DNA of 64,000 nucleotides from Citrobacter enshiensis. Its GTDB lineage: Bacteria > Pseudomonadota > Gammaproteobacteria > Enterobacterales > Enterobacteriaceae. The stretch's first letter is position 1. The number at the start of each line of letters is the position of its first letter. The notes below the pieces were generated by a model, which saw only the letters and a list, made by a program, of their open reading frames with translations, searched no databases and was not told the origin of the DNA. The DNA lies in assembly GCF_029338175.1 (NCBI RefSeq), contig NZ_CP119862.1:186001-250000 (forward strand), given 5' to 3'. This document shows positions 4,405 to 54,561 of the stretch, in pieces. Made by a program: the position numbers and the translations under genes.

Positions 4405-7400
4405 GTTTACTCAGTATATCGCTCGGCCTGACGTTAATGCCGATGGTTCATGCTGCGCCTTCCGCGCAGCAGCAACTGCTGGAGCAGGTGCGGCTCGGCG
4501 AAGCCTCGCACCGTGAAGATCTGGTGCGCCAGTCTTTGTACCGTCTGGAACTGATGAACCCGAATAATCCGGACGTGATTGCCGCCCGTTTTCGCTATTT
4601 ACTGCGTCAGGGCGATATCGCAGGGGCACAGAAACAGCTCGACCGACTCTCCCAGTTAGCGCCGAGCTCCACCGCGTATAAATCGTCCCGCACGACCATG
4701 TTGCTCTCCACGCCGGAGGGAAGACAGTCCTTGCAGGAGGCGCGTCTGCAGGCCACCACCGGGCATCCGGAAGAAGCGATTGCCGCTTACGATAAGCTGT
4801 TCAAGGGGAATCCGCCGGACGGTGAACTGGCCGTCGAATACTGGACGACGGTGGCGAAATTACCCGCGCGGCGCAATGACGCCATTAATCAGCTCAAAAA
4901 AATCAATGCCAGCAACCCGGGCAACAACGGTTTACAAAACTCACTGGCGCAGCTGCTGTTTGACAACGGGCGGCGCGAAGAAGGGTTTGCGGTATTAGAA
5001 CAGATGGCGAAATCCAACAGCGGACGCAACGCAGCGGCGGATATCTGGTATAAGCAGATCAAAGACTTGCCAGCGAGTGAATCCAGCGTGCAGGCACTGC
5101 AAAAGTACCTGACGGTGTTCAGCGAAGGCGACAGCGTCAATGCGGCGCGCGGCAAGCTGAATGATCAACAAAAACAGCTGGCCGATCCCGCTTTCAGAGC
5201 AAGAGCCCAGGGGATGGCTGCGGTTGACGCCGGACAAGGCGGCAAAGCCGTGACGGAATTACAGCAGGCGGTCAGCGCAAACCATAACGACAGCGAAGCC
5301 GTTGGCGCGCTGGGTCAGGCCTATTCACAGCGTGGCGATCGCGCGCGCGCCGTGGTGCAATTTCAGAAAGCCCTTGAGATGGACCCGCAAAGCAGCAGCC
5401 GTGACAAGTGGGAAAGTCTGCTGAAAGTGAACCGTTACTGGCTGTCGATTCAGCAGGGTGACGCCGCCCTGAAAGCCAATAATCCGAACCAGGCAGAGCG
5501 TCTTTATCAGCAGGCGAGAAGCATTGATAACACCGACAGCTACGCTGTTCTGGGGCTGGGTGATGTGGCGATGGCGCGCAAAGATTACGCCGCCGCCGAA
5601 CGGTACTATCAACAAACGCTGCGCATGGACAGCGGTAACAGCAACGCGGTGCGCGGGTTAGCGAATATTTATCGGCAGCAATCTCCGGAGAAAGCCTCGG
5701 CATTTATCGCCTCGCTCTCCGCCAGCCAGCGTCGCAGCATTGATGACATTGAGCGCAGCCTGGAAAACGATCGCCTGGCGCAGCAGGCAGAAGCGCTGGA
5801 AAATCAGGGAAGCTGGGCGCAGGCCGCTGAACTACACCGTCGCCGACTGGCAATGGATCCGGGGAGCGTCTGGGTCACTTATCGTTTGTCACGCGATTTG
5901 TGGAACGCCGGACAGCGCAGCCAGGCCGATGCGCAAATGAGCGCGCTGGCGCGCCAGAAACCCAATGATCCAGAACAGGTCTATGCCTACGGACTTTACC
6001 TCTCCGGTAACGATCAGGGTCGTGCGGCAATGGCGCATATTAACAGCCTGCCGCGCAGCCAGTGGAACAGCAACATTCAGGAACTGGCAGACCGGCTGCA
6101 AAGCAATCAGGTGCTGGAAACCGCTAACCGTCTGCGTGACAGCGGCAAAGAGCGGGAAGCGGAAGAGTTACTCCGACAGCAACCGGCCTCCACACGTATT
6201 GATTTAACGCTTGCCGACTGGGCGCAGCAGCGCCGGGAATACACGACCGCGCGCGCGGCGTATGAGGCGGTTCTGGCGCGCGAGCCGAATAACGTTGATG
6301 CCCATCTTGGTTTGACGGAAGTGTTTATCGCTCAAGGAGATAACGCGGCGGCACGCGCCGAACTGGCAAAATTGCCTGCTGCAGAAGCCGGAGAAACACC
6401 GTCTATCAACATGCAGCGTCGTATCGCGCTGGCGCAGATGCAGTTGGGCGACACCGCGAGCGCGCAGCAGACGTTCAATAAAATTGTGCCGCAGGCGAAA
6501 TCGCAGCCGCCATCGATGGAAAATGCGATGGTACTGCGTGATGCCGCCGCGATTCAGGCGCAGGCAGGTGAACCAGAGCAGGCGCTCGACACCTACCAAG
6601 ATGCGATGGTCGCTGCGGGGATCACGCCAACGCGTCCCGAGGATAACGATACATTTACCCGTTTGACGCGCAACGATGAGAAAGACGACTGGCTGAAACG
6701 CGGCGTACGTAGTGATGCGGCGGATTTATATCGTCAGCAGGATCTCAACGTCACCCTTGAGCATGATTACTGGGGATCGAGCGGCACCGGCGGGTATTCT
6801 GACCTGAAAGCGCACACCACCATGCTGCATGTGGATGCGCCGTATTCCGACGGGCGCATGTTCTTTCGTACCGACATGGTCAACATAAACGTTGGCAGCT
6901 TCTCTGATGATGCCAACGGGCAATACGATGACAACTGGGGGACTTGTACCTTGTCCGACTGTAGCGGCAGCCGCAGTCAGTCCGATCGCGGCGCCAGCGT
7001 CGCCGTTGGCTGGGCGAATGACACCTGGAGCTGGGATATTGGCACCACGCCAATGGGCTTCGAGGTTGTTGATGTCGTGGGGGGCGTGAGTTACAGCAAC
7101 GATATCGGTCCGTTGGGCTACACCCTGAACGCGCACCGTCGTCCTATCTCCAGTTCGCTGCTGGCCTTTGGCGGGCAGAAAGATGCGCCGAGTAATACCA
7201 ACAAAACATGGGGCGGCGTCCGTGCGGACGGAGGCGGAGTCAGCCTCAGCTATGACAAAGGCGAAGCGAACGGCGTCTGGGCGTCGCTGACCGGCGATCA
7301 GCTCACCGGGCAGAATGTGGAAGACAACTGGCGCGTGCGCTGGATGACCGGTTATTACTACAAGATCATTAACGAGAATAACCGTCGTGTCACCATCGGT

Positions 7401-7949: not shown

Positions 7950-9956
7950 TTGCGCGTCAGTCGCTCGTTAACAATTAAGCAGATGGCGATGGTTGCGGCC
8001 GTTGTCATGGTGTTCGTTTTTATATTTTGCACCGTTTTGCTGTTTCATCTGGTACAGCAGAACCGCTATAACACGGCTACGCAACTGGAAAGCATCGCTC
8101 GCTCTGTTCGGGAACCTTTATCTGCGGCAATTCTCAAGGCCGATATCCCTGAAGCGGAGTCCATTCTTGTCAGTATTAAACCTGCCGGGGTGGTCAGCCG
8201 CGCCGATGTCGTGTTGCCTAATCAGTTTCAGGCGCTGCGCATCAGCTTTATTCCCGAGCGCCCGGTGCCTGTCATGATCACGCGCCTGTTCGAGCTGCCG
8301 GTACAGATCTCGCTGCCGGTTTACTCGCTTGAACGTCCGGCTAACCCGCAGCCGCTGGCGTATCTGGTGCTACAGGCCGATTCGTTCCGCATGTATAAGT
8401 TCGTCATCAGCACCGTCTCCACGTTAGTGACCATTTACTTACTTTTGTCGCTGGTGCTCACGGTGGCCATCTCCTGGTGTGTGAACCGCCTGATTTTGCA
8501 TCCGCTACGTAACATTGCGCGTGAGCTCAATGATGTTTCGCAAGAAGACCTGATCGGGCATCAGCTGACGCTGCCACGCCTGCATCAGGATGATGAAATT
8601 GGCATGCTGGTGCGCAGTTACAACCGGAACCAACAGATTTTGCTGCGTTACAACGAAGAACAAACGGACAACGCGATGCGTTTTCCGGTTTCAGAGTTGC
8701 CGAATAAAGCGTTCCTGATGGGAATGCTGGAGCAGGTGGTAGCGCGCCAACAGACAACGGCATTGATGATTGTGACGTGCGAAACACTGCGGGATACCGC
8801 TGGCGTTCTTAAAGAGACGCAGCGGGAAATCCTGCTGCTGACGCTGGTGGAAAAGTTGAAATCCGTGCTGGCGCCGAGAATGGTGCTCACCCAGGTCAGC
8901 GGTTACGACTTTGCGATCATCGCCCACGGCGTCAAAGAACCGTGGCATGCGATAACATTAGGTCAGCAAGTGCTCACTATTATTAATGAGCGGCTGCCGA
9001 TCGAAAGCATACAACTGCGCCCCAGCTGCAGCATTGGCGTCGCGATGTTTTATGGCGATCTGAGCGCAGAACAGCTGTACGGTCGCGCGGTGTCCGCCGC
9101 CTTTACCGCGCGGCGAAAAGGCAAAAATCAAATTCAGTTCTTTGATCCGAAACAGATGGAACTGGCGCAGCAACGCCTGACTGAAGAGAGCGACATTCTT
9201 AGCGCGCTGGATAATCACCAGTTCTCCATTTGGTTACAGCCGCAGGTGGAGATGTCCAGCGGCAAGGTGCTGAGCGCAGAAGCGTTGTTGCGTATGCAGC
9301 AGCCGGATGGAACCTGGGAACTGCCTGAAGGGTTGATTGAACGCATTGAATCCTGTGGCCTGATGGTGACGGTCGGCCATTGGGTGCTGGAAGAGTCCTG
9401 CCGCCAGCTTTCGGCCTGGCAAGAGCGCGGTCAGATGATGCCGCTTTCCGTGAATCTCTCTGCGTTGCAGCTCATGCACCCGAGTATGGTGTCGGATCTG
9501 CTGGAGTTGTTAAACCGTTACCGCATTGAGCCGGGCACATTGATTCTGGAGGTGACAGAAAGCCGCCGGATTGACGATCCTCATGCTGCGGTGGCGATCT
9601 TGCGCCCATTACGCAACGCGGGCGTCCGTATTGCGCTGGACGATTTTGGCATGGGATACGCGGGGTTACGCCAGCTACAACACATGAAGTCGCTGCCGGT
9701 CGATGTGCTCAAAATCGATAAAATGTTTGTTGATGGGCTACCGGAAGATAACAGCATGGTCACCGCAATTATCCTGATGGCGCGTAGCCTCAATTTACAG
9801 ATGATTGCAGAAGGCGTGGAGACGGAAGCGCAGCGTGACTGGCTGGCACAAGCGGGTGTCGAAGTGGCGCAGGGTTTCTTATTTGCTCGCCCTGTTCCTG
9901 CGGAAGTGTTTGAAGAGCGCTACCTGAAGGACGTATCGCCTGATTACAAAAGTTAA
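7950..9956 (+). CDS. pdeK: Membrane c-di-GMP phosphodiesterase PdeK (YhjK, HmsP-like)
   Basis: Inner-membrane signalling protein of 668 residues with the layout TM helix (about 10-32), periplasmic sensor segment, second TM helix (about 150-172), HAMP linker, degenerate GGDEF domain and EAL domain. The EAL signature (AEALLRM, about residue 448), DDFGMG and VEGVET motifs are intact, so c-di-GMP hydrolysis is expected. The GGDEF box is replaced by SGYDF, so cyclase activity is not. It starts at TTG 7950 with a GGAG ribosome site at 7939-7942; this start matches the E. coli N-terminus MRVSRSL. It lies just after bcsC, consistent with local control of cellulose by c-di-GMP turnover, though linkage is inferred. 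Confidence 0.93.
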
Positions 9957-42153: not shown

Positions 42154-43338
42154 TTAATGACTGAAGAAGGCGCGCTGAATAGCCAGCTCAACGCCGCGTA
42201 CTTCCGCCAGACCTTTGAGTCGACCAATAGCGGAATAGCCCGGGTTGGTTTTCTTTTTCAGGTCATCAAGCATCTGATGCCCATGATCCGGTCGCATTGG
42301 GATAAGGGAGATGTTCCCTTCAGCTTTACGACGTTGCTCTTCTTCTACAATCGCTTTCACAACGCTGTACATATCGACATCACCGGACAGATGTGCTGCT
42401 TCGTGGAAGGTTTTGGGATTATCTTCGCGCTGTGTGGAACGCAGGTGCGTAAAGTAAATACGCGGGCCAAACTGCTTAATCATATCAACCAGATCGTTGT
42501 CTGCGCGTACGCCATAAGACCCCGTACACATCGTAAAGCCGTTCGCCTTACTGTTTACGGTATCTACCATCCATTGCATATCTTCAATGGTGGAGACAAT
42601 GCGAGGCAGACCAAGAATGGGGCGCGGAGGATCATCCGGGTGGACGGCCATGCGGACACCGATCTCTTCCGCAACCGGGATAATGGCATGCAGAAAGTAG
42701 GCAAAGTGTTTGCGCAGGGTCGCTTTATCGATATCTTTATAGGTCGCAAGATGACGACGGAATTGGTCCAGCGTATATCCTTCCTCTGCTCCAGGCAGAC
42801 CTGCAATAATATTCCGGGTTAACCGTGCTTTGTCTTCTTCGCTCATATCCGTAAAACGCTGGCGAGCCTGCGTGACTTCCTCGGCGCTGTAATCAGCTTC
42901 AGCGCCCGGACGATTGAGGATATAGAGTTCAAAGGCCGCGAATTCTATTTGGTCAAAACGCAGTGCTTTTGATCCATCCGGTAATACATATTCCAGGTCG
43001 GTACGGGTCCAGTCCAGAACTGGCATGAAGTTGTAACATACGGTATAGACGCCGCATTGGGCGAGATTACGCAGCGTCTGCTGGTAATTGTTGATCCACA
43101 GATCGTACTGGCCTGTGTGGGTCTTGATGTCTTCATGGATAGGCACACTCTCCACTACGGACCAGATCAGACCCGCTTTCTCTACCATTTCCTTGCGCTT
43201 AAGAATTTCATCCGTAGACCAGACTTCGCCGTTTGGAATATGGTGTAGTGCAGTCACAACACCGGTTGCTCCGGCCTGACGAACATCGGACAACGACACA
43301 GGATCATTCGGGCCATACCAACGCCAGGTTTGTTCCAT
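42154..43338 (-). CDS. uxuA: D-mannonate dehydratase UxuA
   Basis: A 394-residue TIM-barrel enzyme, Fe2+/Mn2+ dependent, that dehydrates D-mannonate to 2-dehydro-3-deoxygluconate, the KdgK substrate. The active-site stretches [10 protein letters not shown] (about 232-241), TGSYG and MRPDHGHQM are intact. Length equals E. coli UxuA, and the N-terminus [10 protein letters not shown] is identical. It lies 20 bases downstream of the zinc dehydrogenase gene and is probably in one mRNA with it. Confidence 0.96.
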
Positions 43339-43358
43339 TGTTTTATCTCCAGGAAAAA

Positions 43359-44384
43359 TTAATGAAAGGTCGCATTGATCTTCAGATAGCGCTCAGGGTA
43401 TTGAGCGAGTTCTTTAACGGCGGCAGGAACATCATCAATACTCACCACTTTGCTGACGACATCCGCAGGATTGATGTTCAGCGTGGCCAACATCTGTAAC
43501 GCTTCTTCAAATTCGCCTGCGCTGGTACGGGATCCACACAAATCCAGCTCTTTGAACGTGATTAGGTTTGTTGGTAACGATGTCTCTTGCTTTGGCCAGC
43601 CAGTGAACGCAATACGGCCTGCAAAAGAGGCAAGATCCAACGTTTCGCGAATAGCGCTGTTGGCACCAGACGCCTCGACAACGACCTGTGCCATCGTTCC
43701 CTGTGTAATATCTCTTATTGCTTCAACAACCTGCGATTTTGATGGATTGATGGTGTATGGGACGCCCAGCGATTTGGCGTACTGGAGTCGTTCTTCAACG
43801 ATATCGATCAGAATTGGCGTCGCGTTATAGCGTAATGCGCTAAGTGCCGCCATCAGACCAATAGCACCCGCCCCAATAATGGCGACGTGCTCCCCGTCTT
43901 TTAGTTTTGCCCGATGCAAAGCATGCAATGCGATGGTTAGTGGTTCAGCCAGCGGAGCCATCTCTGGGGCGACCCCATCAGGGATTTTGTGAATTAAATG
44001 CGCGGGATGAGTAACGACCTCCTGCATTGCGCCATCAATATGCACGCCAATCACTTTTAGATTTTCGCAGCAATTTGTTCTACCTACGGAACAGGGGTAA
44101 CAATGGCCACAATAAATATAAGGGTCAACAATAACGTGATCCCCTTCTTTAATATTTTTTGGCATGCCATTGCCTTCCTTAATAACAATACCAGTAACTT
44201 CATGTCCAATAATACGTGGATAAGTTACCAATGGATTTGTTCCGCGGAATGCACCAATATCTGAACCGCATATTCCTGCAGCATCAACTTTAATCAGTAC
44301 TTCATTTTCTTTTTTGTCAGGATAATCAACCCAACGGGTTTCAATTTCACCAGGCTTATTGATGTAAACAGCTTTGACTTTCAT
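43359..44384 (-). CDS. Zinc-dependent sugar-acid/polyol dehydrogenase (MDR family)
   Basis: A 341-residue medium-chain dehydrogenase. Catalytic zinc ligands are in AGICGSDIG (Cys about 38) and GHE (about 60-62). The structural zinc cluster is in [16 protein letters not shown] (about 92-107) and the NAD loop is [11 protein letters not shown] (about 168). It resembles RspB- and LgoD-type enzymes that oxidise aldonates, for example L-galactonate to tagaturonate. With uxuA and uxuB it likely feeds a hexonate into the hexuronate route (inference). Its start overlaps the transporter gene by 29 bases. It appears more AT-rich than its neighbours. Confidence 0.87.
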
Positions 44385-45645
44385 TAGATTTTAATCCTTT
44401 GTTTTTGACAAATACGAATACCAGGCAGCTGGCAATGATTGCGATAGCGCCAGCCAGATAGAATGCGTAATCATATTTACCGCTGAACTGAACGATGAAT
44501 CCGGTAACCAGAGGACCTATAATTCCAGAGATATTTGCCAGCCCATGCATGGCTCCTCCTACGCTACCCACTTTATCTTTATGAACAACGTCCTGAATAA
44601 CAGCCCAATAAATTGGCCCGGTCAGATAAAGCAGAAACAGTGAAACTGACATCAGTGATACAGCGCTACCGATGGTGGTGACCGTACCGGAAACCGCAAC
44701 ACATATTGCCGCCCCCGCCAGGCACAAGCCGAGAATGAGGCGACGAGAGAGAAGCGCATTTCCCGTGACCCGATAGATAAAGTCAGAGCAAACTCCGCCT
44801 AAAACCATCCCGATTGCGCCAATGACCCATGGGATCACTGTTGCAATACTAATTTCTTTAATATCAAGATGTAATGAGTGGTTAAGATAGCTTGGGAACC
44901 AGGTCAGAAAGAAAAAGAGGATATAGTTATAGCTGAAGAATGCCAGCGTAGTTGCCCAAACCATCGGCTGCTTCATGTAGTAGCCAAGAGAAGGCATTGC
45001 TTTGCCGTCATCCGCTAAAATAATGTCGTCATGGTTTTCAAAATCGATACGCTCCTCAGGCGCGAGGTGCTTACTCTTCGAGGGCTTATCACTGGCCGTG
45101 AAGTACCAGAGTATTACCCAGACTAAACCAAACAGGAAGATAATACCGAATGCCGGACGCCAACCTAATGAAAGTGCAAGCAGGCCCACTACCGGACCGG
45201 ATATTGCGCCACCTAATGGTGAACCTGCGCTAAAAATACCAATAGCGGTGGCAGATTCTTTACGCGAAATCCAGTTGTTGATGATTTTATTTCCTGCCGC
45301 ACTCACCGGTCCTTCGGCCATGCCGAATAATACGCGTACGGCAAGCATTGTCCATAAGCCGGTAACAAGACTGGTCATTCCACAAAATATCGACCAAAGT
45401 AATGCGGCGACAAGAAATACAGTCTTGGGGCCAAACCTATCACTGGCCCATCCACCGATAAAATTAAACAGTGCATAACCAACAAAGAATGCGCTGAATA
45501 TCATACCCATTTCAGCAGCATTAAATCCTAATTCCTTTTCAATGAGTGGAGCGGTGATCGACAATGCTGAACGATCCATATAGTTAAGCATGTAAACTAT
45601 AAAAAGAAGAAAAACGATAAGCCATCCCATTGTTTTTCTTTTCAT
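44356..45645 (-). CDS. ACS-family MFS transporter for a hexuronate/aldonate-type anion
   Basis: A 429-residue, 12-TM transporter of the anion:cation symporter family (ExuT/GudP/LgoT-like). Visible are NYMDRSALSITAPL (about 17-30), GGWASDRFGPK (about 64-74) and the RVLFGMAEGPVSAAGNK segment (about 108-124) typical of the family. It is the first gene of the minus-strand operon, with AAGGGGAT ahead of ATG 45645. The substrate is inferred from operon mates only. AT-rich compared with uxuA. Confidence 0.87.
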   Translation of the reverse strand: MKRKTMGWLIVFLLFIVYMLNYMDRSALSITAPLIEKELGFNAAEMGMIFSAFFVGYALFNFIGGWASDRFGPKTVFLVAALLWSIFCGMTSLVTGLWTMLAVRVLFGMAEGPVSAAGNKIINNWISRKESATAIGIFSAGSPLGGAISGPVVGLLALSLGWRPAFGIIFLFGLVWVILWYFTASDKPSKSKHLAPEERIDFENHDDIILADDGKAMPSLGYYMKQPMVWATTLAFFSYNYILFFFLTWFPSYLNHSLHLDIKEISIATVIPWVIGAIGMVLGGVCSDFIYRVTGNALLSRRLILGLCLAGAAICVAVSGTVTTIGSAVSLMSVSLFLLYLTGPIYWAVIQDVVHKDKVGSVGGAMHGLANISGIIGPLVTGFIVQFSGKYDYAFYLAGAIAIIASCLVFVFVKNKGLKSNESQSCLHQ

Positions 45646-45724: not shown

Positions 45725-46027
45725 AATGTGATCAGCATATCGAAAAAATGCCCCTTTAAATAATGATCCTCAAATCAGACAGAGCCTAATCATATGAATT
45801 TAAATAATTTATTAGTGATTGTATGAATCTGAGATAAAAAACGTGGCGACAATAAACAGCTACTTATTCTGATTTTGGATCAATGATGCGCAGTGCGATC
45901 AATGCATGGTTACTGCAAGCCTGTGCGTCAGCGCCACTGCAACGTAGGGTAGCAGCGGCACACCAACCTGCAGTAAATCGGAAAGCGTCTCTGTGATACT
46001 TTGTTTATGAAATATTTCATTAACAAA

Positions 46028-46043
46028 TGTGCTACATATCACA
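46028..46043 (+). promoter_or_regulatory. CRP-like binding site of the rightward operon
   Basis: TGTGC-TACATA-TCACA differs from TGTGA-N6-TCACA at one base, with A/T-rich flanks. Its centre lies about 70 bases upstream of the start point expected from the promoter at 46071-46099, a position typical of CRP activation. Confidence 0.7.
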
Positions 46044-46070
46044 AAATAACGTTCCAGCTGAAAAGTCGCT

Positions 46071-46099
46071 TTGACACACTTTTCCTTCCCTTCTAGAGT
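46071..46099 (+). promoter_or_regulatory. Sigma-70 promoter of the rightward operon
   Basis: TTGACA at 46071-46076 (perfect -35), 17-base spacer, TAGAGT at 46094-46099 (4 of 6 for -10). Transcription should start near 46106, at the beginning of the leader hairpins. Confidence 0.7.
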
Positions 46100-46106
46100 G
46101 AAACCT

Positions 46107-46163
46107 ACAGATTTTAGATAAGAGACTATCTGTGCTATTAAGATGGTCTCTTATTGCTTTTTT
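46107..46163 (+). terminator. Leader terminator with overlapping alternative hairpin (antitermination switch)
   Basis: ATAAGAGACTATCT (46118-46131), a 9-base loop and AGATGGTCTCTTAT (46141-46154) form a 14-bp stem with one G-U pair. T6 follows at 46158-46163, giving an intrinsic terminator between promoter and first gene. An alternative stem ACAGAT (46107-46112) / ATCTGT (46128-46133) would occupy part of the terminator's left arm, so the two folds exclude each other. The operon's own GlpP-type protein is the obvious antiterminator (inference). Confidence 0.85.
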
Positions 46164-46208
46164 CTAGCTATTGGCGACCTTCTTCCAAATATTATGAAGG
46201 GGAGCGCC

Positions 46209-47684
46209 ATGTCCGCATGCTCATTCTCACATCCTGTAAAAATCCGTGGTGTTGATGATATTATTAATTTCATCGATGCCAGGACGCATATTGCCGGCAA
46301 AGCCAGTGTTATTTGGTGGTTAGCATTAGGTGGCCTTTTTCTTGATGCGTTTTCAAATTCGGCACTCAGTGCTGGATTAAACCCGATGACACGTAATTTA
46401 AATCTCAGTGCAACCGAAGTTGCGCTGTTGACCTCTTTTTCATCCTGGGTCGCTATCTTATTTAATCCGATTGGCGGCTGGATTGCCGATCGGTGGGGTC
46501 GGGTTCCTCCGCTGATCATCGCCAAGCTGATGGCCGTGATCGGTGCACTGCTGGTGATGTTCTCTTCTGATTTTGGCACGATAATACTGGGGCGCTTCTT
46601 CGTTGGCGTCTCGTATGGAATGGATTTTGCCGTCGCCATGGCGATGCTGGCCGAGTTCACCCCCGCGAAACTCAAGAGCCGATTAAATACCTGGCAAGGA
46701 GTCTGGTATGTCGCCGTGTGTTTAAATCTGGCACTGGCCTTAATGTTTTATTCATGGAATGTCGGTGATGCTATCTGGCGTTATTCTATTGCCGTAACCG
46801 CATTGTGTGGATTAATTATCCTGTTTTTCCAGTTCCGCTATTTGGTTGAAAGTCCGGTATGGTTAGCAAGAAAATCACGCCTTTCTGAAGCAACGGTAGC
46901 TATGAATAAAATATACGGCGATCAATTTATTCTGGCGCCAAAGGCAGAACAAAAACCTGTTATTGGGCAGGCGCAGAAGGGTGTTAAAAATGTTCTGCTG
47001 ATTTTTCGTGGTGTTTATTTACCCCGTACGATTCTGGCCTCTACGGTACAAGTGTGTCAGTCGATACAATATTTTGGTGTCGGTTGGTATTTACCCGTGA
47101 TCAGCGCGGCGATGTTTGGTAAAAACTTTGTCTACGCAACCTTATGTTCACTATTTTTTAACGTATTCGGGATTGTCGGGGGATTTCTGTCACCCGTGAT
47201 TGGCCGTCGTCTTGGTTTGCGTCGGGCCTCTGCAATGGGTTTCGCCGTCGCGTTCCTCGTCCTGCTCACGCTGGGGCTATTCAGTGACAGCATGCCGCTG
47301 TGGGCCTCTTTATTGGTACCCGCGTTATTTATCCTTTGCCACTCGGGCGGTCCCGGCGCGAACGGGAAGAGCCTGTCATCGCTGTCGTTTCGTAGCGAAT
47401 TACGCGCTGGCGCAAACGGTGTGGTCGGGGCTCTGGGGGCCATTGGCGCGGCGCTGGGGCTGTTTATCTTCCCCGTATTCCGCGAGCTGTATGGCCTGCA
47501 AACGACGTTCTTAATCATGTCGGTCGTCCCTCTTTTTGCCAGTGTTGTCTGCTTTGTCATCCAGTGGGACCCAACGCGTACCGCTATTCAACCTGATAAC
47601 GAGCCGGGCGCGCCGCAATTTGAATCGCGCACCTCTCCCTATCCTGAGTCAATGGCACCGGAGTCCAGCAGGAGTTCTAAATGA
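46209..47684 (+). CDS. MFS transporter, first gene of the GlpP-linked operon
   Basis: A 491-residue, 12-TM major facilitator. GGWIADRWGRVPP (about 98-110) is the sugar-transporter loop motif. A soluble N-terminal stretch (about 1-30) and a Pro/Ser-rich C-terminal tail (about 465-491) are present. Similar in architecture to YgcS-like carriers of E. coli, whose substrate is also unknown. The start at 46209 has GGGGAG upstream; an in-frame ATG at 46143 lies inside the terminator hairpin and is rejected. It overlaps the kinase gene by 4 bases. Substrate presumably a glycerol-related compound (inference). Confidence 0.87.
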   Translation: MSACSFSHPVKIRGVDDIINFIDARTHIAGKASVIWWLALGGLFLDAFSNSALSAGLNPMTRNLNLSATEVALLTSFSSWVAILFNPIGGWIADRWGRVPPLIIAKLMAVIGALLVMFSSDFGTIILGRFFVGVSYGMDFAVAMAMLAEFTPAKLKSRLNTWQGVWYVAVCLNLALALMFYSWNVGDAIWRYSIAVTALCGLIILFFQFRYLVESPVWLARKSRLSEATVAMNKIYGDQFILAPKAEQKPVIGQAQKGVKNVLLIFRGVYLPRTILASTVQVCQSIQYFGVGWYLPVISAAMFGKNFVYATLCSLFFNVFGIVGGFLSPVIGRRLGLRRASAMGFAVAFLVLLTLGLFSDSMPLWASLLVPALFILCHSGGPGANGKSLSSLSFRSELRAGANGVVGALGAIGAALGLFIFPVFRELYGLQTTFLIMSVVPLFASVVCFVIQWDPTRTAIQPDNEPGAPQFESRTSPYPESMAPESSRSSK

Positions 47685-49225
47685 CAGAATATAAAGAGGT
47701 AATTTTGGCGATTGATGAGGGAACGTCGGGCACGCGTGCTGCGGTAGTTACTCAGAACAGTCAGGTTCACTGCCTGGAATATCAAACGCTACAGGTGAGT
47801 AGCCCACGGCATGGCGTTGTTGAACAAGATGCTGATGAAATTCTGTGCGCGACTGTTGCCGTTTGTCGCAAAGCGATTGCCCGCGCGCAACAGCAGAATA
47901 TGCGTATCGTTGCGCTGGCGATTGCCACCCAGCGTTCAACGGCGGTGCTCTGGGATGCGCAAACAGGAAAAGCGCTAACCCCTGCGATGGTCTGGCAAGA
48001 TTCGCGTTTTACGGATGTTCTTGCCGAACTGGCCCCGGAGTGGGATGCGAAACTGATCCCGCAGATTGGCCGCCCGGTGGGGATTCGTTCACCTTATCTG
48101 TGGGCAGCGCACCATATTGCGAATACGCCCGCGGTGGCGAAGGCGCATCAGGCGGGAACATTAGTTTTTGGCACTGTCGACAGCTGGCTGCTGTGGCATC
48201 TGGCGGAAGAAAAAAAATGCGTCACGACGCCAACGAATGCGACGTCAGCAGGCGCTTATCGTCTCAAAGACCACCAGTACCACGCTGAATGGCTCCAGGC
48301 CCTTAATTTCCCAGCCTTACTGCTGCCTGAGCTTCGCGATGATGCCGATAATTTTGGCGCAACGAGTCAAAAAATTCTGGGCATTCACGTCCCTATCCTT
48401 GCCTGCGCGGGCGATCAGTTTGCCGGTGCGATTGGGCTCGGTTGTACAGAGCGTGGACACGCTTTCTGTATGCATGGCACCGGCAGTTTCGTCGATCTGA
48501 TGGTGGGGCCGCAGGTTCCGGCGCTGAACCCTGTCTGTGAAAGTACGCTCACAATGACCGCGCGCCGGCAGAAGGGTCTTTCGCATTACTCCGTCGAAAC
48601 CTTTGTGCCAACCACCGGTTCGGCGCTGAACTGGGTGTGCGACAAGCTGCACTGGTTTGACTCGCCGGAACAGATCAGCGAACTGGCGTCGCAGGTGACA
48701 GACTCCGGCGGCGTCAGTTTCATTCCGGCGTTAACCGGGCTGCGGGTGCCGCATCTCCAGCCGCAGGCGCGCGCATCGCTTAACGGTATCTCAATTTCAA
48801 CGACACGTTCGCAGGTGGCGTACGCCGTCCTGGAAGGCATCGCGCATTCGGTGGCGGCCTGTATGCGGGCCAATGAAGCGGCGACCGGGATAGCGGTAAA
48901 AGAGCTGGTGGTCGGGGGAGGGCTCTCCAACAGCGACACATTGCTGCAAATTCAGGCCGACCTGAGCGGGGTTCCTGTTCGCCGGATGGCGGAAACCGCC
49001 AGGGCCAGTCTTCGCGGCGCTGCTTTTTTGGCGGGCTCTGCGGGTCTGCTATGGGATTCGCTGTCCGATGCCTGCGCCACGCTGAAAACGGCGCAACTGT
49101 TTGAACCCCGCATTGACGATCGCTGCCGCGAACAGAAGCTCGCCCACTGGGAGTCCCGCATTGCGCTCGAAATGGAGACGGCTTCCCGTCACACCTCTGC
49201 TACTCAGGAGTCCACCCGCTCATGA
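47681..49225 (+). CDS. FGGY-family carbohydrate kinase, glycerol-kinase-like
   Basis: A 514-residue kinase with the two actin-like domains of the FGGY family. The N-terminal phosphate loop AIDEGTSGTRAAVV is near residue 10, MHGTGSFVDLM near 265 and the C-terminal FGGY_2 signature GGGLSNSDTLLQIQADLSG near 409. It resembles glycerol kinases more than xylulokinases (MVWQDSR near 105, WLLWHLA). It is predicted to phosphorylate the imported polyol or glycerol derivative with ATP. It is coupled by 4-base ATGA overlaps to both neighbours. A second chromosomal glpK would normally handle glycerol itself, so another substrate is likely (inference). Confidence 0.87.
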   Translation: MTEYKEVILAIDEGTSGTRAAVVTQNSQVHCLEYQTLQVSSPRHGVVEQDADEILCATVAVCRKAIARAQQQNMRIVALAIATQRSTAVLWDAQTGKALTPAMVWQDSRFTDVLAELAPEWDAKLIPQIGRPVGIRSPYLWAAHHIANTPAVAKAHQAGTLVFGTVDSWLLWHLAEEKKCVTTPTNATSAGAYRLKDHQYHAEWLQALNFPALLLPELRDDADNFGATSQKILGIHVPILACAGDQFAGAIGLGCTERGHAFCMHGTGSFVDLMVGPQVPALNPVCESTLTMTARRQKGLSHYSVETFVPTTGSALNWVCDKLHWFDSPEQISELASQVTDSGGVSFIPALTGLRVPHLQPQARASLNGISISTTRSQVAYAVLEGIAHSVAACMRANEAATGIAVKELVVGGGLSNSDTLLQIQADLSGVPVRRMAETARASLRGAAFLAGSAGLLWDSLSDACATLKTAQLFEPRIDDRCREQKLAHWESRIALEMETASRHTSATQESTRS

Positions 49226-50901
49226 AGTTTTTCCCCTCGCGAAAGCCAAATAAATCCCGCAGTGAAATGTACGGCGCACAACCGCTGCGTCTTCACCGCG
49301 CTGAACAACTGAGCATGCTGGAGAGCGACACCTTCGACATTCTGATTGTTGGCGGTGGCGTGACCGGTGCTTACGCCGCGCTCGATGCCAGTTTGCGCGG
49401 CTATCGGGTGGCGTTGGTCGAAAAGAGCGACTTTGCCTCCGGTACGTCGTCGAAGTCATCAAAAATGGTCCACGGCGGGTTGCGTTACATCGAACAAGGG
49501 AACCTGGGGTTGGTACGCCATTCTCTTCTTGAACGCCAGCGTATGCGCCGGAACGCGCGCCACCTGGTGCAACGGCTTCCATTTTTGTTTCCCGTGCTCG
49601 ACAAAAACGGCGTCTTTGATAAGCGGCTGTCTTCGGCGTTCGAAAGTCTGCTCTGGACCTACGATCTCGCAGGCGGATGGCGTGAAGGCATCCTGCATCA
49701 AAAATTAACGCCAGCGGAGGTGCTTTCGCACTGCCCGACGCTGAAAGAGGAGCAGTTGTCCGGCGGGTTTATGTATTTCGATGCCCGCGTGGACGATGCC
49801 AGGCTGACGCTCGCGTTGATCCGTACGGCGGCTTTTCATGGCGCGGTGGTGACTAACCATGCCGAGGTGATCGCCACCACGCGCGACCCGCATGGCAAGG
49901 TGAACGGGGCCGTGATACATGCCGATCGCAGGGAGATTCATGTCAAGGCACGGGTGGTCATTATGGCCACCGGCGTCTGGCTGCGCGACTGGAATGGGCT
50001 GAAGAAAGGCGAAGCGTCGTCGCTGCATATCCGTCCTGCAAAGGGGGTTCACGTCGCGATTCCGTGGATGAAGATTCGCAACGATTGCACGGTGACGATC
50101 CCGGTCGCCGGGCGCAGTCGCCGCGCCACCATCACCCGCTGGGGCAACGTTTCTTATCTGGGAACGACGGATGAAGATTACCAGGGCGATCTCAATGATG
50201 TGCACTGCAATCGTTCTGAACTGGACTTTCTGTTAGAGGGGGCAAATTCGGCGCTGAAAACAGATCTTCGCCCCGAGGACGTGGTGGGGAGCATTGCCGG
50301 TTGTCGCCCTCTGGTAGGCACGGCTGGCGGGAAGACGGTGGAGATGAAACGTAACCATGAAATTACCGTCTCTCCGGATGGGCTGATCACGATTGTTGGC
50401 GGCAAGCTCACGACATCGCGTCATATGGCGGAAGAGACGATTGATGTGGCCAGCAAGATCCTGGGGCGTAAAAAAGCCTGTTCAACGAAAACGGCGTACC
50501 TGTTAGGTGCCGCAGGGTACGACTCGCAGGCCATTCTGGCATCCGGCGGGCTTTCGGCACATTTGGGAGAGCGCTATGGCACGGAGGCCCATTTCGTGAG
50601 CGACATTATCCAGAGCGATCCCCGTTTGCTCACTCCTATCGTTGAAGGGCTTCCGTATACCGAAGCTGAGGTGGTGTATGCCGTGCGTCACGAGCTTGCC
50701 AGCACCGTGGATGATGTGCTGTCGCGCCGAATTCGCGCGCGGTTAATGGCCCGGGATGCGTCGGCCAGCGCCGCCGGGCGTGTCGGTGAAATTCTGCAAA
50801 AAGAACTCAAACTGCAACCGGAACAGGTCGCAGAACAGGTCGCCAGCTATCGGGCGGCAATTAAACATGAAAAATCCGAACTGATGGGGACATCTGAATG
50901 A
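49222..50901 (+). CDS. GlpD-like FAD-dependent glycerol-3-phosphate dehydrogenase
   Basis: A 559-residue flavoprotein of the aerobic glycerol-3-phosphate dehydrogenase family. The FAD loop VGGGVTGAYAALDASLRG (about 40-57) and the GlpD signature SSKSSKMVHGGLRYIEQGN (about 75-93) are present, with a C-terminal DAO_C helical domain (about 400-550). The product of a glycerol-phosphate-type substrate would be a dihydroxyacetone-phosphate-type ketone, delivered to quinone. It is not a fragment: length is in the usual 500-560 range. It acts downstream of the kinase by position. The next gene starts inside its last codons. Confidence 0.88.
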   Translation: MKFFPSRKPNKSRSEMYGAQPLRLHRAEQLSMLESDTFDILIVGGGVTGAYAALDASLRGYRVALVEKSDFASGTSSKSSKMVHGGLRYIEQGNLGLVRHSLLERQRMRRNARHLVQRLPFLFPVLDKNGVFDKRLSSAFESLLWTYDLAGGWREGILHQKLTPAEVLSHCPTLKEEQLSGGFMYFDARVDDARLTLALIRTAAFHGAVVTNHAEVIATTRDPHGKVNGAVIHADRREIHVKARVVIMATGVWLRDWNGLKKGEASSLHIRPAKGVHVAIPWMKIRNDCTVTIPVAGRSRRATITRWGNVSYLGTTDEDYQGDLNDVHCNRSELDFLLEGANSALKTDLRPEDVVGSIAGCRPLVGTAGGKTVEMKRNHEITVSPDGLITIVGGKLTTSRHMAEETIDVASKILGRKKACSTKTAYLLGAAGYDSQAILASGGLSAHLGERYGTEAHFVSDIIQSDPRLLTPIVEGLPYTEAEVVYAVRHELASTVDDVLSRRIRARLMARDASASAAGRVGEILQKELKLQPEQVAEQVASYRAAIKHEKSELMGTSE

Positions 50902-52454
50902 TCAGCAAAGAAGCGATAAAACGAGGCTATAACCGGGGCAATTACACCGTTGGCGCACATACGCGTCCGGGATGGGCAACCGAAATCGACAGCAGCAACG
51001 GCGCAAAAGGGATGCAGATTGATCCCATCGTCATGAGCGAGGCGGTCATTGACCGGCTGCGGGTGATTGCCGATGAGGTGATGACGGCAGAAGCCGATGT
51101 TATCACCTGGACCCGCGACTGGTGGGCGGGCTCCATGATTGCGGAAACGCAAGGCGCGCCCGCCACGCCAAAAGGGGCGATTGTTCGCGTCTCGACGGTG
51201 GAACAGATTCAGGACGTGATGCGCCTTGCGAGCGAATCTGCCATTCCGGTCACGGTGTCGGCAGGGCGTAGTAATGTCACGGGGGCGGCTCTGCCGTTGC
51301 GCGGCGGGATCGTGCTGGATGTGTGCGAACTCAATAAATTGATCGGTTTTGACAAGGAAAGCCAGATTGTTGAGGTCGAAGCGGGCATGTTTGGCGATAT
51401 TTTCGAGCAAACGATCCAACAAGAGTATGGCATGACCCTTGGACACTGGCCGTCATCCTTCGGGATCAGCACCGTGGGAGGATGGGCAGCCTGTCGCGGC
51501 GCAGGCCAGCTTTCCACTCGCTACGGCAAAATCGAAGATATGGTGTTTGGCATGGATGTTGTGCTCGCGGATGGGCGCTTAATCACCGTCGGCGGTTATG
51601 CGCGAAGTGCGACGGGGCCGGATTTACAACAGATGTTTATCGGCTCGGAAGGCACGCTGGGCGTGATTGTTCGCCTGCGCTTGAAACTGCACCGCCTGCC
51701 CGATTATGGCCGTGCCATTGCCTGGGGTTTCTCCAGTTTTGCCAGTGGGTTAGACGCCTGTCGCGAAATCCTACAGCATGGCGCGAACCCTGCCGCGCTT
51801 CGCCTGTACGATAATCTGGAAAGCGGCGTACAGTTTGGCCTGCCTGACACCAATGTCCTGTTAATTGCGGATGAAGGCGAACCGGAAATTGTTGATGCCG
51901 TGCTGGCGATCAGCGAGCGCGTTTGCCAGCGTAGCGGGCAAAAACTTGATGGCGATACGTTGTTCGAGCGTTGGCTGGACACCCGGTATCTGACCGGAAA
52001 AAGTGCCGAAGGCTTCAAGAAAAGCCCAGGGCTGGTGGCGGATACGCTGGAGATGGTAGGACCCTGGCGCGATCTCAGTATCGTCTATGATGATGTGGTG
52101 GCGGCGATTAACGCGGTACCGGGGACGCTGGCCGGTTCTGCGCACCAGTCCCACGCTTATGTCGATGGCGCCTGTCTCTATTTTTCATTACGTGGGGATG
52201 TTGCCGTCGAACAGCGTGCTGCCTGGTATCGTGCGGCGTGGGATGCGGCGAATGCCGTATTAATTCAGCACAACACGTCGCTCAGTCATCATCATGGCGT
52301 GGGATTGCTGCGCTCACCCTATATGCAGGCATCGTTGGGCGACACGCTCATGGTTCTGGCTGATATTAAGAAGGCGCTCGATCCGCAAAATATCCTTAAT
52401 CCAGGAAAACTGGGGCTGAGAGCCACACTTTCACCCCATCAGGCAGGTGAGTAA
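50898..52454 (+). CDS. Alkyl-dihydroxyacetone-phosphate synthase-like FAD enzyme
   Basis: A 518-residue vanillyl-alcohol-oxidase-fold flavoprotein. The FAD-binding PP-loop region is VSAGRSNVTGAALP (about 115-128), with FGISTVGGWAACRGAGQ near 190. The C-terminal active-site stretches SHAYVDGACLYFSL (about 415) and SLSHHHGVGLLR (about 462) carry the Tyr and triple-His characteristic of alkyl-DHAP synthase. E. coli YgcU is a related bacterial protein of unknown role. Enterobacteria make no ether lipids, so reversal, that is cleavage of an ether on a DHAP-like ketone, is a reasonable guess (inference). Confidence 0.86.
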   Translation: MISKEAIKRGYNRGNYTVGAHTRPGWATEIDSSNGAKGMQIDPIVMSEAVIDRLRVIADEVMTAEADVITWTRDWWAGSMIAETQGAPATPKGAIVRVSTVEQIQDVMRLASESAIPVTVSAGRSNVTGAALPLRGGIVLDVCELNKLIGFDKESQIVEVEAGMFGDIFEQTIQQEYGMTLGHWPSSFGISTVGGWAACRGAGQLSTRYGKIEDMVFGMDVVLADGRLITVGGYARSATGPDLQQMFIGSEGTLGVIVRLRLKLHRLPDYGRAIAWGFSSFASGLDACREILQHGANPAALRLYDNLESGVQFGLPDTNVLLIADEGEPEIVDAVLAISERVCQRSGQKLDGDTLFERWLDTRYLTGKSAEGFKKSPGLVADTLEMVGPWRDLSIVYDDVVAAINAVPGTLAGSAHQSHAYVDGACLYFSLRGDVAVEQRAAWYRAAWDAANAVLIQHNTSLSHHHGVGLLRSPYMQASLGDTLMVLADIKKALDPQNILNPGKLGLRATLSPHQAGE

Positions 52455-53029
52455 TGATCAAAAATCTTGGCGCGCTTCTGGCGCGCCAGCCCGTCATCAT
52501 GGCGATTTACGGTATTGAGCAGTTGAAAACTGCGCTCTCCAGTACGGCCGAAGTGTGCATTATCGCCAATATTGACCTCATTAAGCTGCAACCTGTCATC
52601 GAAGTGCTCTCGAAGGCGGGGAAGTACGTCATCGTGAATATCGACAGTTGCAACGGCTTGTCGCAGGACAAAGGCGGCATTGATTATGTCGCTGAAACCG
52701 GCGCGATGGGGCTGCTCTCAACGCGTTTGCAAACGGTGCAGCGGGCGAAGAAATGCGGGCTGGTCACGATGCAAAAAATCTTTGTGACTGACCGTTCTGC
52801 ATGGTCACGAAGTCTGCATGCGGTTGAGCAAAGCGAACCGGATTATGTGCAACTGATGCCGGCGCAGATGTTGCCGCTCCTGTCACAAACCGATCGCAAT
52901 GTACTGCCGCCGATTGTGGCCTCCGGGTTTGTCTCTAATCAGGAACATGCCCGAACCGCCTTACAACACGGGGCTGTCGCTGTTTCAAGCAGTGACAGCG
53001 CGTTGTGGAATCTGAATATTCAACGTTAG
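52454..53029 (+). CDS. GlpP-family glycerol-3-phosphate-responsive antiterminator
   Basis: A 191-residue TIM-barrel-like protein of the GlpP family, whose Bacillus member binds the leader mRNA and prevents termination when glycerol-3-phosphate is present (established knowledge). Family segments seen here are VNIDSCNGLSQDKGGIDYV (about 62-80), LLSTRLQTVQRAKKCGL and QKIFVTD (about 88-115), and HGAVAVSSSDSALWN near the C-terminus. E. coli YgcP is the nearest analogue. It starts within the preceding gene's stop (1-base overlap). The target is very probably the terminator at 46107-46163. Confidence 0.88.
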   Translation: MIKNLGALLARQPVIMAIYGIEQLKTALSSTAEVCIIANIDLIKLQPVIEVLSKAGKYVIVNIDSCNGLSQDKGGIDYVAETGAMGLLSTRLQTVQRAKKCGLVTMQKIFVTDRSAWSRSLHAVEQSEPDYVQLMPAQMLPLLSQTDRNVLPPIVASGFVSNQEHARTALQHGAVAVSSSDSALWNLNIQR

Positions 53030-53046: not shown

Positions 53047-53361
53047 ATGGGGAACACGCATCTACAGGTGATTGCCTGGTATTTTGTCCGTGAATCAATG
53101 GGCGATAAGGTTGATGAGGCGCTCAGGGCGCTTGCTGACGCAACACGCCGGGAGCCAGAAAACCTCTCGTATGAGTTTTTCCGCTCGACGGAAGACCGCG
53201 ATCGCTTTGTCATTCTGGAAACCTACCGCAGCGCCGACGGACTTGAACGTCACCGACAAACGGACCACTTCCAGCGGATTGGCGTTGGGGCCATCACGCC
53301 ACTTCTGCTGCGTAAAGAGGTGAAAAGTTTTCTCGTCAATGCCGACGATCCGCGAGGTTAA
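53047..53361 (+). CDS. Small ABM-domain protein (antibiotic biosynthesis monooxygenase-like)
   Basis: A 104-residue ferredoxin-like ABM-domain protein with the typical layout: first strand LQVIAWYFVRE, helix, then NLSYEFFRSTEDRDRFVILETYRSADGLERH. It resembles quinol monooxygenases (YgiN) and other cofactorless oxygenases or dimeric carriers. ATG 53047 follows GCGGGAGTCAGGA and lies 17 bases after the GlpP-like gene. A reading from 53005 overlaps that gene and lacks a ribosome site. Function in the operon unknown; it may process a reactive intermediate. Confidence 0.82.
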   Translation: MGNTHLQVIAWYFVRESMGDKVDEALRALADATRREPENLSYEFFRSTEDRDRFVILETYRSADGLERHRQTDHFQRIGVGAITPLLLRKEVKSFLVNADDPRG

Positions 53362-53394: not shown

Positions 53395-54561
53395 ATGAAT
53401 AATGTCATTAAGCCTTTTGAATTTGCGACCGTGGCGGAAATCATTGTTGAATGGGCGGGCGCGGAGCGACTCGGAGAGATACTGCAAACGCGTTTGCGTG
53501 CCCGCAATGCGCTGTTAGTGACCGATCCCGGCCTGGTGAAAGCGGGGGTTCTCCCACCGGTTCTGTTTAGCCTGCGGGAAGCCGGTTTTCAGGTCACCCT
53601 TTATGACCAGGTTCAGGCCGATCCTCAGGAGTGTATTGTCCGCAAGGCGACGCGTGTGGCGCGGGAGCATCACTGCGACATGGTGATTGGCCTGGGCGGC
53701 GGCTCCTCCCTGGATGTGGCTAAACTGGCGGCGGTATTAATCCCTTCAGAACAAGAAGTGCAGGACCTGTATGGCATTGGGAAAGTGAGCGGGCAGCGTC
53801 TGCCGCTGGTGCAGATCCCGACCACCGCAGGTACCGGTTCTGAGGTCACCAATATTGCGATTCTCACCACCGGTGAAAACAGCAAAATGGGGGTTGTCGA
53901 CAGACAGCTCTATTGCGATCTGGTACTGCTGGATGCGCAACTGACGCTGGGTTTACCCCGCGTTCATACGGCTGCCGCGGGAATCGATGCCATGGTGCAC
54001 GCCATTGAGGCGTATACCGGTAAGCACAAGAAAAACCCGATTTCGGATGCGCTTTCCCGTGAGGCGTTACGCTTGATAAGCCGCCATCTGGTCACCGCGT
54101 GCCATGACGGACAAAACCGTGAAGCGAGGGAGAGTGTCCTGTTGGGCGCGTTGCTGGCGGGTCAGGCTTTTGCGAACTCGCCCGTTGCCGCCGTGCATGC
54201 CTTAGCCTATCCGCTGGGCGGGCGGCATCACATCCCTCACGGCCTCTCGAATGCGCTCATGCTGGTTCCTGTGCTGCGGTTTAATGCTGCGGTGGCGGCG
54301 CCGCTCTATGCGGAACTGGCCGCGGTGGTTGGGGTCGGGGGAACCGGTAATGTCGAACAGGATGCGCAGGCGTTTATCGGCGAGATGCAACGGATTATCG
54401 TGGCAAGCGGCGCGCCGCAGCGGCTTCGTGATGTCGATATTCAGCAGGGGGATCTGCCTGTGCTGGCGCATGACGCGATGCAGCAAACTCGCTTACTGGT
54501 GAATAATCCGCTGAAACTGAGTGAAGATGACGCTCTGCAGCTTTATCAGCAGGCATTCTGA
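53395..54561 (+). CDS. Iron-containing (group III) alcohol dehydrogenase
   Basis: A 388-residue Fe-ADH. The dinucleotide motif GLGGGSSLDVAK (about 99-110) and TTAGTGSEVTN (about 143-153) are present. Metal ligands lie in GIDAMVHAIEAY (about 199-210) and VHALAYPLGGRHHIPHG (about 265-281), so the active site is complete. It likely reduces or oxidises an alcohol/aldehyde with NAD(H). Last gene of the operon, 33 bases after the ABM gene. In a glycerol-ether scheme it would handle the released alkyl alcohol or aldehyde (speculative). Convergent with nikR. Confidence 0.88.
   Translation: MNNVIKPFEFATVAEIIVEWAGAERLGEILQTRLRARNALLVTDPGLVKAGVLPPVLFSLREAGFQVTLYDQVQADPQECIVRKATRVAREHHCDMVIGLGGGSSLDVAKLAAVLIPSEQEVQDLYGIGKVSGQRLPLVQIPTTAGTGSEVTNIAILTTGENSKMGVVDRQLYCDLVLLDAQLTLGLPRVHTAAAGIDAMVHAIEAYTGKHKKNPISDALSREALRLISRHLVTACHDGQNREARESVLLGALLAGQAFANSPVAAVHALAYPLGGRHHIPHGLSNALMLVPVLRFNAAVAAPLYAELAAVVGVGGTGNVEQDAQAFIGEMQRIIVASGAPQRLRDVDIQQGDLPVLAHDAMQQTRLLVNNPLKLSEDDALQLYQQAF

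Follow-up and report, generated by a model that had tools for sequence, protein, structure and literature searches.

Does the leader of an operon that encodes a protein of the GlpP antiterminator family act as a switch that is controlled by this very protein? The question is raised by a stretch of 64,000 nucleotides from Citrobacter enshiensis (the window, i.e. the whole stretch that was analysed), in which a leader of about 100 nt separates a promoter from a run of seven genes. An earlier interpretation of the letters alone (the sequence-only reading) had placed at this leader a promoter, a 14-bp stem, a T6 run and a competing stem that uses the left arm of the terminator. All of these were confirmed at their coordinates and are listed here with the features that accompany them:

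46028..46043, forward strand: CRP-like site TGTGCTACATATCACA, centred about 70 nt upstream of the predicted start
46071..46099, forward strand: sigma-70-type promoter, TTGACA-N17-TAGAGT (-35 at 46071-46076, -10 at 46094-46099)
46107..46133, forward strand: putative antiterminator hairpin ('GlpP box') with arms ACAGAT (46107-46112) and ATCTGT (46128-46133)
46118..46154, forward strand: terminator stem-loop of 14 bp, predicted from sequence, with arms 46118-46131 and 46141-46154
46158..46163, forward strand: T6 run, 2-3 bases beyond the terminator stem
46173..46208, forward strand: second hairpin, which encloses the ribosome-binding site AAGGGGAG and has counterparts in relatives

A predicted intrinsic terminator is thus found between the promoter and the first gene, as is characteristic of GlpP-type antitermination. 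The loop of the box is 15 nt long and contains AGATAAGAGA at 46116-46125, most of the 3' arm of the box is contained in the left arm of the terminator, and the window has a single copy of the core pattern GACTRTCTGT..AAGATGGTC (shuffle mean 0.00). RNA folding, which had been proposed as a check, bore the predicted structure out: the region 46100-46208 folds at -34.5 kcal/mol (z -3.97), a stability equalled by none of 200 shuffles, and the minimum free energy fold includes the 14-bp terminator stem. Taken each alone, the terminator has an energy of -19.6 kcal/mol and the competing stem one of -4.4 kcal/mol, so that without help the competing fold would probably lose in this leader, which is what would be expected if it needs a protein. 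The terminator was not called by a simple terminator scan, probably because its loop is longer than the 3-8 nt that the scan allows. The promoter is kept in the rows of the enterobacterial relatives in the leader alignment, in weaker form in Mixta. Of the CRP-like site, so named for its likeness to the CRP consensus, the right half TCACA is kept across the Citrobacter, Raoultella and Mixta relatives and the left half is variable.

The genes that follow the leader were assigned by profile match, the transporter also having orthologues in the relatives:

46209..47684, forward strand: MFS transporter (gene 1)
47681..49225, forward strand: FGGY kinase related to glycerol kinase, below the GlpK equivalog cut-off
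49222..50901, forward strand: GlpD-like FAD oxidoreductase (DAO, DAO_C)
50898..52454, forward strand: FAD-linked oxidase (FAD_binding_4, FAD-oxidase_C)
52454..53029, forward strand: PF04309 GlpP-family antiterminator, the proposed reader of the box (gene 5)
53053..53361, forward strand: antibiotic biosynthesis monooxygenase-like (ABM) protein
53395..54561, forward strand: iron-containing alcohol dehydrogenase, probably the final gene of the operon

The identification of gene 5 as GlpP-type proved correct: the protein scores 178 bits against PF04309 (cut-off 27), which places it in the GlpP family, and it aligns with the solved homologues 3kts (residues 10-186) and 1vkf (32-188). Its closest counterpart among the named records found is that of Citrobacter sp. 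R56 (99% identical). One of the three genomes searched from the same genus (G002) gave no PF04309 match, so that the operon is patchy within the genus. As to the neighbourhood, a divergent operon at 42154-45645 on the minus strand includes an MFS transporter (profile match), together with what we take, by resemblance, to be a mannonate-dehydratase-like protein and a zinc alcohol dehydrogenase. Within the family, the window-group proteins have Q before the [ILV][LM]P stretch (11 of 11), where the others aligned have E (12 of 12), and they have [SA]GF where most other PF04309 proteins have GGL. These differences at conserved residues, in combination with a kinase below the GlpK cut-off, make a phosphorylated polyol other than glycerol-3-phosphate plausible, i.e. 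the ligand of the window group may be a different one.

The sequence-only reading had suggested that the fifth gene product binds the leader and opens the operon when a phosphorylated substrate accumulates. We consider it very probable, and well supported by the comparison described below, that this leader works as a GlpP-type switch, in which a protein prevents the termination of transcription. The RNA would start at or just before 46107; unaided, the hairpin 46118-46154 would form and transcription would end at the T-run ahead of the transporter gene. When the substrate of the operon has entered the cell and been phosphorylated, the product of the PF04309 gene (52454-53029), presumably loaded with a phosphorylated polyol, would bind the weak hairpin 46107-46133 via its AGA..GAGA loop, and the bound hairpin would sequester the left arm of the terminator, by which the operon would be read through. 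The competing hairpin is, in other words, probably held open by a regulator from the same operon, and the location of the regulator gene inside the operon implies a positive loop.

An alignment of orthologous leaders had been expected to reveal conserved stem pairs and a conserved T-run; the first part of this expectation held and the second did so in part. A search of genome contigs yielded ten relatives of the PF04309 gene, seven of which have a readable leader and operon, and the element of the window is present in all seven (L003, L004, L006, L007, L009, L011 and L012). Two contigs (L005, L008) end before the leader and were left out of the counts, and in Pluralibacter (L010, 9480-10576) the PF04309 gene is kept and most of the operon has gone together with the leader: only a piece of the FAD-linked oxidase was found there, with no MFS match and no box. 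When the seven are joined by relatives from Cupriavidus (L014, L016), Burkholderia (L015), Arthrobacter (L017), G257 (L020) and G198 (L021), the count becomes 13 of 13: each readable leader has box and hairpin ahead of the transporter gene, and each operon keeps its five genes in order. These relatives span the alpha-, beta- and gamma-proteobacteria plus Arthrobacter. Orthologous operons with no conserved terminator or competing stem, which were to count against the switch, were looked for and not found. A T-run of some kind is present in nine of the 14 window-type leaders (window included), those of Raoultella and Mixta being weak; L014, L015, L016, L020 and L021 keep box and hairpin and have no T-run after the hairpin. 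Two of the operons carry damage or possible errors: in Burkholderia (L015:2564-3887) the transporter gene is split after its N-terminal part by an insert that has a frame resembling an IS110-type transposase, which leaves the box before the gene start and separates it from the remainder of the operon, and in Arthrobacter the kinase and the FAD-linked oxidase match in two frames.

The leader is conserved far better than its flank at the level of sequence: box plus terminator are 87% (Raoultella) and 85% (Mixta) identical to the window, whereas the flank at window positions 45950-46049 is 47% and 44% identical, and the transporter gene 73% and 72%. The window-type alignments contain no stem with double changes (in alignment A3, 36 of 36 cells are paired, with little variation), which implies that what is conserved within this group is the sequence itself, as would suit a site bound by a protein. 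Arthrobacter keeps both folds with changed letters, i.e. its loop is flanked by the arms ACAGGG/TCCTGT, and its terminator, GAGACTTCC/GGAGGTCTC, has a T-run. A separate observation concerns the leaders without a T-run (L014:3677-3770, L015:2463-2560, L016, L020 and L021), in which TCTTACAGA, located close to the ribosome site, could pair with TCTGTAAGA of the box, in L021 with wobble pairs.

The loop that the competing hairpins share, AGA-N2-5-[AG]AGA, extends beyond the operon of the window. YgcP of E. coli K-12 is a PF04309 protein that is annotated 'putative anti-terminator regulatory protein', and its gene lies near the divergent operons ygcW and yqcE. In both of their leaders the left arm of the terminator has a second possible partner further upstream, the pairs of arms being AGTTACC/GGTAACT and ATTACT/AGTAAT:

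L013:16300-16570: the divergent E. coli K-12 ygcW and yqcE leaders, each with a box and an overlapping terminator, candidate targets of YgcP

Box and overlapping terminator are found at both divergent leaders in all six ygcP loci (L013, L023-L027), with a T-run in 12 of 12 leaders. The sequence-only reading had considered GlpP control new for the gamma-proteobacteria; the family is not new there, because YgcP already carries its annotation, and it is the RNA targets that appear to be new. Among ten more distant PF04309 loci, four have a box near the gene. The box is found in Streptomyces clavuligerus between the PF04309 gene and an SDR gene (AGTTACT/AGTAACT around the shared loop), in Cytobacillus (gene order glpP-glpF-glpK-glpD) in the leaders of glpF and of glpD, in Acetoanaerobium at two sites (before an aquaporin-like gene and before a FAD-dependent, weakly GlpD-like gene), and in G165 between glpP and glpK. 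The signature thus precedes genes linked to the PF04309 family in three bacterial phyla, and its arms differ between lineages yet stay complementary around a constant loop. In L028, L029, L030, L031, L035 and L036 the descriptor described below finds no box near the PF04309 gene; by eye, L029, L030 and L036 have leader terminators, a possible competing stem and altered loops. The loops in Enterococcus (L029:7715-7790 and 9580-9630) and Vescimonas (L030, around 5590-5650) fit the motif only partly, and a second, distant PF04309 operon in a Klebsiella pneumoniae record (L036:8117-8175) has a possible competing stem AGGGT/GCCCT with a different loop.

The specificity of the signature was evaluated with a descriptor composed of arm, loop motif, complementary arm, overlapping terminator and T-run. 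In its strict form it gave 25 matches in 1.33 Mb (both strands of 33 sequences), 25 of 25 in leaders of PF04309-linked genes, where 0.7 would be expected from shuffles (11 matches in 19.97 Mb), with the qualification that it was tuned on leaders already seen, some of which it then counted. The G165 site and the two Acetoanaerobium sites are matches in leaders unseen before; leaders without a T-run, L011 and the Cytobacillus glpD leader are missed. A loose form gave 32 matches, versus 18 in 3.99 Mb of shuffles, and several of them look like chance (L028, L031, L033 minus strand, L034 at 7895 and two in L035). A MAFFT alignment of the boxes of all groups (A2) was discarded since the groups were out of register, and a permutation test was used instead: the pairing of 5' and 3' flanks within their own leader was equalled by none of 20,000 permutations for 21 leaders, a result that is inflated because some of these were picked by pairing. 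The covariation score of the E. coli-type alignment was reached by none of 500 shuffles; two of its pairs change on both sides, a count that was reached by 296 of 500 shuffles.

Gene and box also occur together across genome samples. A covariance model (R1) built from nine window-type leaders, that of the window among them, gave one match at E <= 1 in the 4.9-Mb genome of the window (E 5e-18) and matched two of 398 genomes of the phylum (G000 and G257), both with the operon; it missed G198, the box of which is more diverged. PF04309 itself was found in 12 of these 398 genomes at E <= 0.001, in seven over the cut-off and in six over the full profile. A second model (R2) was built from eight E. 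coli-type boxes, with rows from G168, G621 and G678 and none from G372 and G705. It matched five of 388 Enterobacterales genomes at E <= 0.001, at two sites each and always in the ygcW-yqcE gap; further weak matches were obtained in the genome of the window (E 0.37) and, as a third one, in G621 (E 0.24). The five genomes are precisely the five with a ygcP-type PF04309 protein in a sample of 394 genomes (genomes were matched by handle), and the sixth over the cut-off is that of the window. Gene and box lie in one locus, and their joint occurrence is therefore supporting rather than independent evidence. Leader conservation, complementary arms, the box in other phyla and joint occurrence together fit the proposal that the PF04309 protein acts on the leader.

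Binding of the box by the PF04309 protein could also serve mainly translation or message stability instead of termination, by freeing the ribosome-binding site in hairpin 46173-46208 or by shielding the 5' end. The five leaders that keep the box without a T-run all have the ribosome-site hairpin, and PMC9604022 cites work that, by its title, ascribes to the B. subtilis glpD leader and GlpP two functions, one in antitermination and one in mRNA stability. We nevertheless regard this as improbable, given the T-runs in nine of 14 window-type leaders (two weak) and in 12 of 12 ygcW/yqcE leaders, and given that the 3' arm of the box lies mostly or wholly inside the left arm of the terminator in the leaders scored. 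Less likely still, and very much so, is an intrinsic attenuator or a riboswitch, with a small molecule sensed directly or another factor at work and the PF04309 gene as a bystander. The small size of the element and its two mutually exclusive folds would suit such a device, and the tie between protein and leader is a comparative one. Set against this, the box goes with PF04309 in several phyla, the competing stems of the leaders scored, with energies of -1.4 to -6.1 kcal/mol, seem to depend on a further factor, and the interval between promoter and terminator is too short for an aptamer-sized domain. Moreover, searches of the window, of the Cytobacillus leaders and of the ygcW-yqcE gap gave no Rfam family at its gathering score. 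The best sub-threshold Rfam match by E-value was SurA sRNA across the ygcW-yqcE gap (25.9 bits versus 100, E 3e-5), Ref55 (20.9 bits versus 43) was rejected because its consensus lacks the box, and L028, L029 and L034 gave only a tmRNA. Ribosome-mediated attenuation via a leader peptide, for which there is a frame that begins with the ATG at 46143 and continues into the transporter gene, has a negligible chance of being correct, since this ATG sits inside the terminator and the Raoultella frame (L009) ends, by eye, after nine codons, so that there is no conserved leader peptide.

Several published observations concern the ygcP locus. A Northern blot revealed a small RNA that lies on the strand of yqcE, upstream of this gene, and has a medium-dependent abundance (PMC4681348, Mol Microbiol 2014); a terminated yqcE leader would be expected to have this appearance. 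In other papers, ygcW<>yqcE is listed as a predicted CRP target in a CRP SELEX study (PMC3105977), the ygcW and yqcE promoters are included in a list of constitutive promoters (PMC3946193), and ygcP has an 83-fold expression ratio in ethanol-challenged E. coli cultures (PMC1599756). The window, too, has a CRP-like site. Within the part of the literature that was searched, nothing links YgcP to ygcW or yqcE, and the mentions of ygcP in the texts examined are gene lists only. On the most far-reaching view, GlpP-family proteins may read one RNA code, i.e. a hairpin with an AGA-N2-5-[AG]AGA loop and its 3' arm within the left arm of a terminator, across Firmicutes, Actinobacteria and Proteobacteria; YgcP may control ygcW and yqcE in E. 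coli K-12, with the small RNA upstream of yqcE as the terminated leader; the Citrobacter-type branch may sense a polyol phosphate other than glycerol-3-phosphate; and members without a T-run may have swapped termination for control of the ribosome-binding site. That all of these hold jointly is plausible and falls somewhat short of probable. The cross-phylum RNA signature, its proteobacterial presence and the two predicted YgcP targets appear to be new within the literature searched. The little-studied ygcP of E. coli K-12 gains two precise predicted targets in this way, and an explanation is offered for the small RNA upstream of yqcE.

How does the switch relate to known systems? The antiterminators LicT, SacY and BglG likewise stabilise a weak hairpin of about 29 nt (the RAT) that overlaps a terminator arm, but they belong to a protein family that is unrelated to PF04309 and their loop signature is different. 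The PF04309 protein is common to the YgcP system and the window, as are the box and the overlapping terminator, which the YgcP system has in two leaders, and the neighbourhood of ygcP includes distant relatives of the MFS transporter, the FAD-linked oxidase and the kinase of the window; YgcP, annotated only as putative, is about 26% identical to the window protein, and its two types of box arm differ from ACAGAT/ATCTGT. With GlpP of B. subtilis, which acts on the glpD, glpFK and glpT leaders, the likeness is the PF04309 regulator itself, and the AGA-N2-5-[AG]AGA loop recurs in the glpF and glpD leaders of the Bacillus relative Cytobacillus (two leaders in one record), where it would be the bound part of the Bacillus-type glp recognition element. 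The operon of the window differs from the B. subtilis glp system by a kinase that does not reach the GlpK cut-off, by a GlpD-like oxidase and by a FAD-linked oxidase, and the PF04309 proteins of the window group have Q instead of E before the [ILV][LM]P stretch. According to PMC9604022, the B. subtilis GlpP leaders have a terminator between promoter and gene, as in the window, and the three GlpP promoters share a GlpP binding site and a terminator, so that the Firmicutes form of the signature may already have been described. What the comparison adds is a concrete RNA signature, by which a mechanism studied in Bacillus probably extends to the gamma-, beta- and alpha-proteobacteria.
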